Below are positions 46,212 through 50,424 of a stretch of 64,000 nt of DNA, one piece after another (the stretch's first letter is position 1; every line of letters begins with the position of its first letter). The DNA is from Myxococcales bacterium. Lineage in GTDB: Bacteria > Myxococcota_A > Polyangia > Polyangiales > Polyangiaceae. The stretch covers positions 1-64,000 of the forward strand of contig JACPVJ010000188.1 of the NCBI GenBank assembly GCA_016191785.1. Direction: 5' to 3'. Under the pieces are notes generated by a model. The model was not told the origin of the DNA. It made no database searches and saw nothing but the letters and a program-made list of their open reading frames with translations. The position numbers were made by a program, and so were the translations under genes.

Positions 46212-46490
46212 TCAGCCCCCGGCCTTCTTCAGATTGCTGATCCCGACGAAGAGCAAGATGGCCGCGACGATGGCGATGGGGAAGGCGAGGCCGGTGGTGA
46301 TGATGCCGAAGGGCATGGCCTCTTGGGTGGCTCGCTGGGAGCCGAACGCGACCAGGACCACGCCGCCGATCAGGGTGAGCAGCGCGAACGCGCAGCCGCA
46401 CCCGCCGCAGCCCCGGAGCAGCTTCGCGTTCTTGATCTTGCCCGGGTCGGCGGCACCGGCGCCGGGCAGGCCGGGAGCTTGGGGTTGCAT
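46212..46490 (-). CDS. Small two-segment membrane protein
   Basis: 92 residues. A short Pro/Gly-rich N-terminus and a Cys cluster (LLRGCGGCGCAF, residues about 25-36) are followed by two membrane helices, about 34-52 and 64-82. The Cys-Gly-Cys group lies at the membrane interface and could bind metal or be modified. I do not recognise a family. It follows the SRPBCC-cyclase gene at 60 bases on the same strand and is convergent with the HAD phosphatase gene. Confidence 0.7.
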   Translation of the reverse strand: MQPQAPGLPGAGAADPGKIKNAKLLRGCGGCGCAFALLTLIGGVVLVAFGSQRATQEAMPFGIITTGLAFPIAIVAAILLFVGISNLKKAGG

Positions 46491-46550: not shown

Positions 46551-48362
46551 TCAGTCTCTTCGGTCGAGCGCGATGCGCGCCGCGGTGAGCGGTTCGGAGA
46601 GACCTTTCAGCTCGGCCGCGAACGTCTCGGGCACGCACGGGGTGTCGAGCCAGCCCAGCGTCCGGGCGCTGTCGGCCAGCGCTTTCGGCAAGACCAGCTC
46701 TCCGCCCTGGGCCGCGCCCTGCAGGCGGGCCGCCACGTTCACCGTCTGCCCGAAATAGTCGAGGACGCCGTTGGCGGTCACGACGTAGCACGGGCCCGCG
46801 AACACTCCGACCTTCAGGCTGAGATCGCCCGCGTCCGCCTCGCTCCGCCGAAACGCGCGGAACTCGGCGTGCATGGCCGCGCCGGCGCGCACGGCGTCTT
46901 CCTCCCGGATGAACGCGGCCATCACCGCGTCACCGATGGTCTTGACCACCGTCCCAGAGTGCTCGGCCACGACGCGGTCCAAGAGCTCGAAGTGGGCCTG
47001 CACCACCCGGAAAGCGCGGGCGTCGCCCACCGCGGTGTAGAGCGCGGTCGACCCGGTGAGGTCGGTGAACAAGAGCGCGACGCGCGCGATGCGCAGCGAG
47101 AGCCCGGGCCGCAGCACCTCGCGGGCGAACTGCCTTCGAAACTCGGGCAGCATGCTCACGTGGTGGGCGGTCGCCGCGGTCTGGGTGAAGTCCACCCGCT
47201 CGAGCTTCACGTGACGCTCGCGGGGGTCTTCCTGGCTGACCACGATCCGTGCGCCGGGCTCGAGATCGGCCTGGGCCGGCTCGAGCGTCGTGGCGCTCGC
47301 GGTGGCACTCAGGCTCTTCGCGCCGCCGGCCCCGACGCGGAGGATGGCCGCGGGGCCGCCGCGGACGAACAGGCGGTAGCGCCCGGGCTTGGAGGGTGCC
47401 GAGAGCTCGACCTGGCCCGACGCCGGGAGCACGGTCTGCGCGAGCACGTGGGGCGTCCGCGCCGGCCCGCCGATGCAGTACGGCCCCTCGTCGACGGTGC
47501 GGATGCCCGCGGTCGGTCGGAAAGTGGCCTCGACCGCCTGATCCAGGTCCAGATCGAACGAGATGTCGCACAGCTGGCAGTGCGCGTGGGCGCCCAGGTC
47601 CGTGAGGCTCTGGCTGCGCTCGGAGGCGGTGCGGCAGCTCGGGCAGATCAAGTCCCAGCACAGCTCGAGGAGGCCAGCGCTCACCGCGTGGAGACACGCT
47701 GCGAGCATCACGTTCCGGTCGATGCCCCAGGTCTCTGCGAGCTCGAACGGGCGGATGCGATCGACGTCGACATCGGACCCCGACCGGATCAGATCGACCA
47801 GCTGCTTGCCCGCCGACTGGGCCGGCCCGGGCAGCGACTCGAGGTACGGTGCCGCCAGGCGATCGAGCACCGACCCGTCGACCGATCCGGCGGCCGAGGC
47901 GAGCGCGCGGCCGCCGGCGGCGAGCGCGCCGTCGATCTGCTCGATGTAGTCGGCGATGCGCCCGACGAAGCGGCCGACCTGCAGCCGCAGCACCGGCGCG
48001 ATCACGCCAAACTTCGGCTGCGCACCTACCCGCACCGTGACGTTCGTGCCCCCGCCGGTCCGGGGTGCGAGCTCGAACTCGTTGAGCAGCTGGGTGACCA
48101 GGCCGCGGCGGACGTCCCGTCGCACGCTGAAGCGCGTGGGCTCGATCCACTCGTACGGCCGCTCCTCGTACTCCAGCGGAAAGCCGCCGGACACGGTGGT
48201 GACCACGTGTCGGGCGGCGCTGGCGTCGTCGTTCGGCGAGAGCGCGAGGCGGCCGAGCCCGACCGCGCGATTCAGGCGCTCGGTGTCGGTGACCAGCGGC
48301 CAGAGCGCTCCGGCGTCTGCCCGGCACGCGACGACGCGCTCCACCACCACCGCTTTTGCCAT
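46551..48362 (-). CDS. Adenylate-type class III cyclase fused to SRPBCC domain
   Basis: 603 residues, cytoplasmic, no membrane helix. Residues 1-150 are a START/SRPBCC-type hydrophobic-ligand domain (VVVERVVACRADAGALWPLV, FSVRRDVRRGLVTQLLNEFEL). The middle (about 160-400) has a zinc-ribbon-like pair of CxxC motifs at 240-243 and 262-265 and matches the DUF5939 type found before cyclase domains. The class III catalytic domain (about 425-595) has both metal aspartates (Asp434 in LFTDLTGST, Asp478 in KTIGDAVMA), Lys474, the Asp in DYFGQTVNVAARL, and the Asn/Arg of the transition-state pair. The Lys/Asp combination indicates ATP specificity. Synthesis of cAMP in response to a lipid-like ligand is inference. 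Confidence 0.93.
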   Translation of the reverse strand: MAKAVVVERVVACRADAGALWPLVTDTERLNRAVGLGRLALSPNDDASAARHVVTTVSGGFPLEYEERPYEWIEPTRFSVRRDVRRGLVTQLLNEFELAPRTGGGTNVTVRVGAQPKFGVIAPVLRLQVGRFVGRIADYIEQIDGALAAGGRALASAAGSVDGSVLDRLAAPYLESLPGPAQSAGKQLVDLIRSGSDVDVDRIRPFELAETWGIDRNVMLAACLHAVSAGLLELCWDLICPSCRTASERSQSLTDLGAHAHCQLCDISFDLDLDQAVEATFRPTAGIRTVDEGPYCIGGPARTPHVLAQTVLPASGQVELSAPSKPGRYRLFVRGGPAAILRVGAGGAKSLSATASATTLEPAQADLEPGARIVVSQEDPRERHVKLERVDFTQTAATAHHVSMLPEFRRQFAREVLRPGLSLRIARVALLFTDLTGSTALYTAVGDARAFRVVQAHFELLDRVVAEHSGTVVKTIGDAVMAAFIREEDAVRAGAAMHAEFRAFRRSEADAGDLSLKVGVFAGPCYVVTANGVLDYFGQTVNVAARLQGAAQGGELVLPKALADSARTLGWLDTPCVPETFAAELKGLSEPLTAARIALDRRD

Positions 48363-48397: not shown

Positions 48398-49107
<710 letters not shown>

Positions 49108-49111
<4 letters not shown>

Positions 49112-50424
49112 GGCACGAGCTCCCGTGCGTGGTCGGCGGCGTCGCGTCCGAAGATCAAGGCGTCTTCCATCGATGAGTAGTTCCAGTTGCCGTAGCGCCC
49201 GGCCGGAAGGATGTCCCGGCTCGTGAGGAAGGCCCGCACGGTCTCGAGCGCGTCGAAGTAGGAGTGGTCGAAGATCACGTACGCATAGTCGATCTTGCGA
49301 ACGCGGGCGAAGGCCACGTCGCTGGGCTGGGAAATCAGGCCGAGCTCCAAGAGGCCCGCGGTCACGCGGGGCAAGAGGCTTGCTTCGTCCGGGGGCGTGC
49401 GGTCGGCCAGCTCGACGTACAGGCAGGCCTTGCCCGGCGGCGCCATCGCGCTCGAGAAGTGCGAGTAGCAGCCGACGCGGTAGAACGGATACTTCGCTTC
49501 CGGGACGTAGATCCAGTGGTAGGGCTTGCCCGAGGGGGCTGCCAGGGCGACGTCCAGGTAATAGAGCGGGTTATGGCGCAGCTTCGCTGCGGCGGAGCGC
49601 ACCTCGTCGGGCGCGTCGGTCAGGCTCTGGACCAGCTGCGGCAGCGGCGCGGTGCTGATCAACACGTCGTAGCTCACGCGCTCGCCGTCGGCGAAGTGCA
49701 GGCGCTTTTCGTGGGCGTCGATGCGCTCGGGGGCGCGCCCGAGCTCGAGCTCCGGAAGCTCTTTGGCCATGGCCTTCGGGAGCTCGCCGATCCCCAGTCG
49801 CGGGTAGACGAAGCTCTGGTTGTAGCCGAGCTCGCGCTCGCTCGCGCCCACCGCGCCGGCGATCACGTCTTCGAGCTTGGGCAGCGGAACGAACCTCTGG
49901 CACCACGCGGCGGTGATCTCGCTCGGGTGCACGCCCCAGAGCCGCGAGTTGTAGGGGAGCATGAAGTGGCGGCTGAACCCGGGACCGAAGTGGGTGAGGC
50001 AGAACTCCTCGAAGTTGCGAGGCTCGGCCTTTCCCTCGGCGAAGTGCGCCGTCAGAAACCCCATCAGACACTCGTAGGCCACGGCCGGCGGCAGGCCGAA
50101 GGTGTTGGCCTGGAAGGGGTAGCGTGTGTAGACGCCATTCGACCAGATCACGCTGTTGCGCTGCACCACCGTGTGGTCGCTGCCGATCCACCCGAGCACC
50201 CGCTCTCGCATCGCGGCGTCGCGCAGGTGGAGCAGGTGCCCAGTGCGATCGAACCGATACCCCGAGTCCTCGAGGGTGACGCAGTGGCCCCCCGGGTGCC
50301 CCTGCTTCTCGAAGATTCGGTGATCGGTGCCCGCCGCCTTCAGGCTCAGCGCCGCGCTCATGCCGGTGAGCCCGGCGCCGAGGATGGCGACGGGAACGTG
50401 CGGACGCCGTTCGGTCGGGGGCAT
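49108..50424 (-). CDS. FAD-dependent oxidoreductase / UDP-galactopyranose mutase-like
   Basis: 438 residues. N-terminal Rossmann motif [35 protein letters not shown] (given here in parts) binds FAD; the second motif is [22 protein letters not shown]. The layout, with [23 protein letters not shown] and [17 protein letters not shown], fits the amine-oxidase/protoporphyrinogen-oxidase superfamily and is close to UDP-galactopyranose mutases, which act on nucleotide sugars. It is translationally coupled to the GT2 gene downstream and lies 41 bases behind polA. A sugar-nucleotide mutase/transferase pair is the simplest reading; substrate specificity cannot be read from sequence. Confidence 0.88.

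Follow-up and report, generated by a model that had tools for sequence, protein, structure and literature searches.

The window, the whole 64,000-nucleotide stretch of Myxococcales DNA that we analysed, carries on its minus strand a gene for a 603-residue protein in which an SRPBCC domain, a DUF5939 region and a class III cyclase domain follow one another (Table 1). The initial annotation had put this gene at 46551–48362, and these ends are exact, with an ATG start codon at 48362 and a stop codon at 46551–46553. The domain order proposed there is borne out by 45 full-length relatives that share it. A structure model of the whole protein had a pLDDT of 92.6 and a pTM of 0.86; the most hydrophobic 19 residues (218–236, mean Kyte–Doolittle value 1.72, borderline) fall within its winged helix.

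Table 1 Features of the cyclase gene and its upstream neighbour in the window
Feature	Residues	Positions	Strand	Basis
Whole gene, SRPBCC–DUF5939–class III cyclase, 603 aa		46551..48362	−	
SRPBCC/Polyketide_cyc2-like domain; invariant W21, E67, P69, R82	1–150	47913..48362	−	DSSP of model, PF10604, alignment A3
Helices and winged-helix core (first half of DUF5939)	163–239	47646..47876	−	PF19363, model, structural neighbours with Z ≤ 7.4
Predicted zinc-ribbon region, C240xxC243 ... C262xxC265	240–276	47535..47645	−	Cys invariance, secondary structure
β-sandwich, with C296 and H305 invariant in alignment A1	284–400	47163..47513	−	Alignment, model
Link to cyclase, with short helix 406–415	401–421	47100..47162	−	Model
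Class III cyclase domain	422–600	46563..47099	−	PF00211, Ma1120 match, fold match to 5d0h, conservation
Glycosyltransferase family 2 gene, 35 bases upstream of cyclase start		48398..49111	−	

The source genome (8.3 Mb in 216 contigs) contains 12 Guanylate_cyc matches, only one DUF5939 match and 22 cNMP-binding-domain matches. Directly upstream of the cyclase gene, on the same strand, lie the glycosyltransferase gene and a gene for an FAD-dependent amine-oxidase-like protein (together 48398–50424), possibly on one transcript with the cyclase gene. A small gene downstream (46212–46490, same strand) encodes a 92-residue protein with no Pfam match, in which two hydrophobic stretches can be made out by eye (19-residue mean up to 2.5).

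Searching loci L001–L089 with six neighbour proteins of the window, we found HrpB, the small protein (93% identity), the glycosyltransferase, the FAD oxidoreductase and PolA outside the source genome in L010 only, and the HAD neighbour nowhere outside the source genome; no hint of a ligand came from these six proteins in these loci. Open frames shared among the relatives comprised the cyclase itself (31 loci) and five small groups, each from three or four loci. One further, mixed group contains 22 frames at 18 loci, and only 8 of these frames share at least half of their extent with the cyclase gene. It resembles the spurious frames, antisense ones included, that GC-rich DNA produces, and a conserved neighbour could still exist.

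An N-terminal SRPBCC domain with a candidate ligand pocket

An SRPBCC or START-like domain had been proposed for the N-terminus, and this is supported by PF10604 matches of the relatives and by the predicted topology. The assignment rests on these two because the window's own domain scores below the Pfam cut-off: no SRPBCC match was returned when the whole 603-residue protein was searched against Pfam, and residues 1–150 alone matched PF10604 with E = 5.9e-4 and 20.6 bits, under the 27.4-bit cut-off. With the window protein counted, 22 of the 46 full-length proteins in the alignment matched PF10604 at E ≤ 0.01, and five of nine N-termini, picked from the 45 relatives, exceeded the cut-off. For residues 5–148, DSSP of the model gave the helix-grip order: one strand, then a pair of helices, more strands and finally a long helix at the C-terminal end. 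When the model was read in blocks of ten residues, pLDDT was at least 90 in 13 of the first 15. The rows of the Foldseek and VIA fold lists for the whole model were filled by cyclases. An hhalign comparison of the SRPBCC profile with five SRPBCC-like sequences of the source genome (9.5% probability over 30 columns, from a small, ragged alignment) can carry little weight at that size, yet it counts against the SRPBCC reading.

The strands of this domain show a regular pattern. Phe61, Leu63 and Tyr65 are followed by Glu67, and Phe78 and Val80 by Arg82 and Val84; the positions of F61/L63/Y65 and F78/V80/V84 are hydrophobic in 80–100% of rows, while E67 and R82, in the same strand register, are charged in 100%. 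The register suggests that these invariant charges sit on the face that should point inwards. An excerpt of PMC3127847 describes a Glu169/Arg188 ion pair between strands of STARD1, among the key residues of its cavity, and reports the pair to be missing in other cholesterol-binding START members. The best match of the SRPBCC profile to a solved protein was CC1736 (E = 0.0012, covering profile positions 87–148 of 151 only), presented in an excerpt of PMC11541779 as a Coq10 orthologue with a START domain that binds CoQ. Together, the strand register, the likeness to STARD1 and the CC1736 match favour a pocket and say nothing of its contents.

A probable winged helix with a ribbon, and a β-sandwich, in the DUF5939 block

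Pfam placed DUF5939 (PF19363) at residues 184–290 (E = 1.6e-17, 64 bits against a cut-off of 22.5), although this match spans only positions 19–126 of the 281-position profile; the second half of DUF5939 aligns with the short forms described below only profile to profile. Two CxxC knuckles (C240, C243, C262 and C265) are present between short strands, and all four cysteines occur in 46 of 46 aligned proteins, which bears out the CxxC–CxxC region of DUF5939 type named in the initial annotation. Its description of this region as a zinc-ribbon linker stands for the cysteine ribbon and not for a simple linker, since in the model the ribbon region is enclosed by two wing strands (232–239 and 277–283) of a winged helix, with a β-sandwich following. 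On this confident model, the 'linker' would probably be a winged helix whose wing carries the ribbon, followed by the sandwich.

Residues 158–400 were predicted separately and searched with Foldseek and VIA. Foldseek gave no match at E ≤ 0.001. All VIA rows had Z below 8, were mostly of winged-helix type and covered the first half; among them were Fur (Z 7.4, r.m.s.d. 2.5, 86 residues aligned) and TFE-α (Z 7.0, r.m.s.d. 2.4, 80 aligned), matches weak enough that they may reflect a common arrangement alone. No family could be assigned to the β-sandwich; its two sequence matches to designed immunoglobulin-like proteins, with no single stretch passing, are probably due to chance.

The catalytic residues of an adenylate-type cyclase are intact

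The C-terminal domain matched Guanylate_cyc (PF00211) at residues 425–560 (E = 4.6e-17, 62.6 bits against a cut-off of 21.9). Its closest solved relative by sequence was the adenylyl cyclase Ma1120 (E = 8.1e-18), and a triple mutant of Ma1120 (5d0h) was the top structural row (Z 22.5, r.m.s.d. 1.7, 161 residues aligned). All six catalytic residues of the adenylate type are present, namely D434 and D478, which we take to be the metal residues, K474 and D535, presumably the base-selecting pair of adenine type, and N542 and R546, presumably acting on the transition state. The adenylate-type site proposed earlier therefore has its full residue set, and the protein is predicted, from these residues, to be probably a soluble class III adenylate cyclase that makes cAMP.

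Relatives with the same layout occur in several phyla

One scan of genome contigs gave at least 551 relatives, of which the best 80 were kept. Forty-seven of these match the query all the way from the N-terminal part into the cyclase. Two were dropped, L026 for a broken frame and L053 for an early frame end, and the remaining 45 with the window make up the 46 rows of alignment A1. By record title, and mostly in metagenome-assembled records, they come from at least six phyla (Myxococcota, Planctomycetota, Armatimonadota, Chloroflexota, Pseudomonadota, Spirochaetota and Bdellovibrionota), so the domain order is not peculiar to the genome of the window. The genome of Minicystis rosea DSM 24000 holds two copies. 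Two very similar proteins that adjoin in the tree, L044 and L049, are titled Anaerolineae and Alphaproteobacteria, and one of these bins is probably contaminated or misplaced.

Invariant in all 46 rows are W21, E67, P69, R82, C240, C243, C262, C265, C296, P300 and H305 on the sensor side, and D434, K474, D478, D535 and N542 in the cyclase; position 546 is Arg in 39 rows and Lys in 7. As the relatives align over their full length, with five catalytic and four zinc-type residues identical throughout, the layout is, on sequence grounds, far from a chance arrangement. It is a real and conserved regulatory layout that sits on a known class of enzyme.

The other 33 of the 80 relatives match only from residue 126 or later. 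With L069 dropped (broken frame) and L053 added there were again 33 short rows, and 21 of these were used in alignment A2, leaving out the fragments L053 and L083 and ten near-duplicate rhizobial rows. These short forms, DUF5939–cyclases (PF19363 with PF00211) of rhizobia and others, can be aligned to the family of the window protein along the length of both DUF5939 and the cyclase (hhalign probability 100, E = 2.1e-97) and, like it, have a complete catalytic set (21 of 21). Unlike it, they have no SRPBCC match and lack the C296/H305 pair, and C243 is Ser in 5 of the 21. A search for an SRPBCC gene beside short-form genes (34 loci, L056–L089, several of them short; frames of at least 80 residues, E ≤ 0.01) returned only L057, which is itself a long form.

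C296 and H305 were found in 46 of 46 rows of A1, in all 17 kinase-fused rows described below and in 90 and 94, respectively, of 95 other class-wide relatives, whereas in the short forms Cys occurs at 296 in 0 of 21 and His at 305 in 0 of 21 (two rows being gapped at 305, where the alignment is gappy). The two residues thus go with the SRPBCC domain, and this pattern of conservation suggests that they may be a contact or a switch between that domain and the sandwich.

Kinase-fused relatives carry degenerate cyclase domains

We searched 192 genomes drawn from the class with A1 at E ≤ 1e-60. At least 87 of them had a match, with at least 139 matches in all, both being lower bounds as six candidates were scored per genome. 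We analysed 112 matches, excluding the window itself, one with an internal stop and 25 that did not span the model. In 17 of the 112, from 16 genomes, the same frame contained a kinase match (L090, L091, L092, L093, L095, L182–L190, L192, L194 and L201), the kinase being of Ser/Thr type and placed before the SRPBCC–DUF5939–cyclase cassette. HRDxKPxN and DFG motifs were present in all 17; by crude patterns a glycine loop was seen in 14 and a lysine strand in 7, the L185 sequence being truncated where its stretch ends. Pfam found Pkinase and DUF5939 in each of three kinase-fused relatives tested, and no Guanylate_cyc at E ≤ 0.01 in any of the three. By eye, the N-termini of L090–L092 also seem to include a second stretch that is kinase-like but divergent; the kinase search itself gave a second match in L189 only. 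Long open frames were dropped as evidence of fusion and only kinase matches were counted: in 10 of the 95 unfused relatives the domain starts beyond residue 300 of the frame, or the frame runs off the retrieved sequence still open, with no kinase match.

The complete catalytic set (D, K, D, D, N, R/K) was found in 0 of 17 relatives with a kinase versus 88 of 95 without one. The degree of loss varies, with D478 kept in 4 of the 17, K474 in 13 and D535 in 14; L194 keeps both metal aspartates and D535 and has lost K474, N542 and R546. On these losses we predict that the cyclase domain of kinase-fused relatives is dead. On the sensor side, W21, E67, R82, the four cysteines, C296 and H305 occur in all 17 rows and P69 in 16. 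The seven exceptions without a kinase are L170, which ends before the last three residues, L179, which stands alone, and five members of a separate unfused clade (L175, L191, L195, L196 and L200). In this clade position 434 is Glu and position 542 is altered, as are 474 and 478 in some members, so that it looks, judging by these residues, like another line of pseudo-cyclases.

A tree of residues 1–405 was built by a quick method with SH-aLRT support for 133 rows (the 112 relatives, the window and 20 named relatives). It placed 16 of the 17 kinase-fused rows in one group (support 99) and L201 apart on a long branch, with at least two changes. Since the kinase-fused rows mostly form one group, the tie between kinase and degenerate cyclase amounts to about one or two events and not 17.

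Discussion

We favour, with moderate confidence, a reading in which the window protein is a soluble, ligand-gated class III adenylate cyclase, a cAMP switch that we take to be cytoplasmic. Its SRPBCC domain would hold a ligand, presumably hydrophobic, with Glu67 and Arg82 probably anchoring the polar end. A change in the occupancy of the pocket, in either direction, would shift the block of winged helix, putative zinc ribbon and β-sandwich. Through the short link this shift would change how the two cyclase domains, presumably of a dimer, meet, and would thereby alter the rate at which ATP, rather than GTP, is presumably cyclized. The putative coupling of a lipid-like ligand to cAMP synthesis, raised in the initial annotation, is plausible, and it is strengthened by the hydrophobic register with its invariant Glu and Arg and by the retention of the cassette with a kinase where the cyclase is degenerate.

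The invariance of C296 and H305 in A1 and their absence from the 21 short forms, which point to a possible contact with the SRPBCC domain, would also suit a docking or assembly domain that binds a partner or the dimer mate and whose pocket is vestigial; the cyclase would then be set otherwise, for example by C296/H305 or the zinc ribbon through their redox or metal state. A domain that served for docking alone could, however, presumably do without strands in hydrophobic register and the invariant charges placed among them, and we consider this explanation rather unlikely. The winged helix might instead still bind DNA, as its nearest structural neighbours, winged-helix regulators and TFE-α, could suggest, which would make the protein a cyclase bound to DNA or coupled to transcription, with its binding to DNA governed by the SRPBCC ligand; but with Z scores below 8 the likeness perhaps lies in the common arrangement alone, and such a role seems very improbable. 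A cyclic UMP synthase among the structural rows (Z 18.9) would be in keeping with a product other than cAMP, either cGMP or a pyrimidine cyclic nucleotide, against which stands the presumed adenine-type pair K474/D535, the same in 46 of 46 rows; we regard another product as quite improbable.

If the ligand-gated adenylate cyclase that we prefer is the true reading, cAMP synthesis would gain a novel type of input, a START-like receptor that recognizes a lipid, quinone or polyketide. The kinase-fused relatives offer a natural comparison, with one sensor and two outputs and with one catalytic site lost where another was gained; these relatives, which trade cyclase for kinase, are the most surprising side of the family and lie outside the window. 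They allow a broader and more tentative reading, which we place somewhat short of probable, in which the SRPBCC domain with the winged helix, zinc ribbon and sandwich would be a general sensor cassette for hydrophobic metabolites with two alternative outputs, an active adenylate cyclase or an active PknB-type kinase, and in which the cyclase domain of the kinase line would be a pseudo-cyclase that has stopped cyclizing but mostly keeps the adenine-binding Lys/Asp and might act as an ATP-sensing dimer hinge.

Comparison with known systems

Within open-licence PubMed Central, which leaves most subscription journals outside, we found no paper on DUF5939 or PF19363, none on SRPBCC with an adenylate, class III or nucleotidyl cyclase and none on SRPBCC with a protein kinase in Myxococcus; a search for START domain, adenylyl cyclase and lipid sensor gave nothing related by title. 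The SRPBCC–DUF5939–cyclase layout is thus undescribed in that literature, while the enzyme class itself is known.

DUF2652 proteins are like the window protein in joining a cyclase-like and a polyketide-cyclase domain in one protein, and differ from it in that the case described, a single one from Bradyrhizobium, has the reverse domain order and, in the excerpt of the source, no mention of DUF5939 (PMC4886424). Coq10/CC1736 and the START domains resemble the window protein through a weak, partial match to the SRPBCC profile and, for STARD1 as excerpted, through a Glu/Arg pair comparable with E67/R82, but have no fused cyclase.

Ma1120, from Mycobacterium avium, is like the window protein in its cyclase domain, by sequence and in the mutant chain alike, whereas the matched chains have no SRPBCC–DUF5939 part. 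Among soluble bacterial cyclases, the known inputs include light, bicarbonate, pH and fatty acids. Rv1264 and Rv2212, both soluble and of class III, are mycobacterial examples of regulation by fatty acids, which act through an N-terminal regulatory domain; to our knowledge this domain is not an SRPBCC domain. The photoactivated cyclases bPAC and OaPAC share with the window protein a soluble cyclase placed after an N-terminal sensor, and their structural match reaches back to about residue 405; their sensor, however, is a light sensor, whereas that of the window protein would be the SRPBCC domain with the winged helix, zinc ribbon and sandwich.
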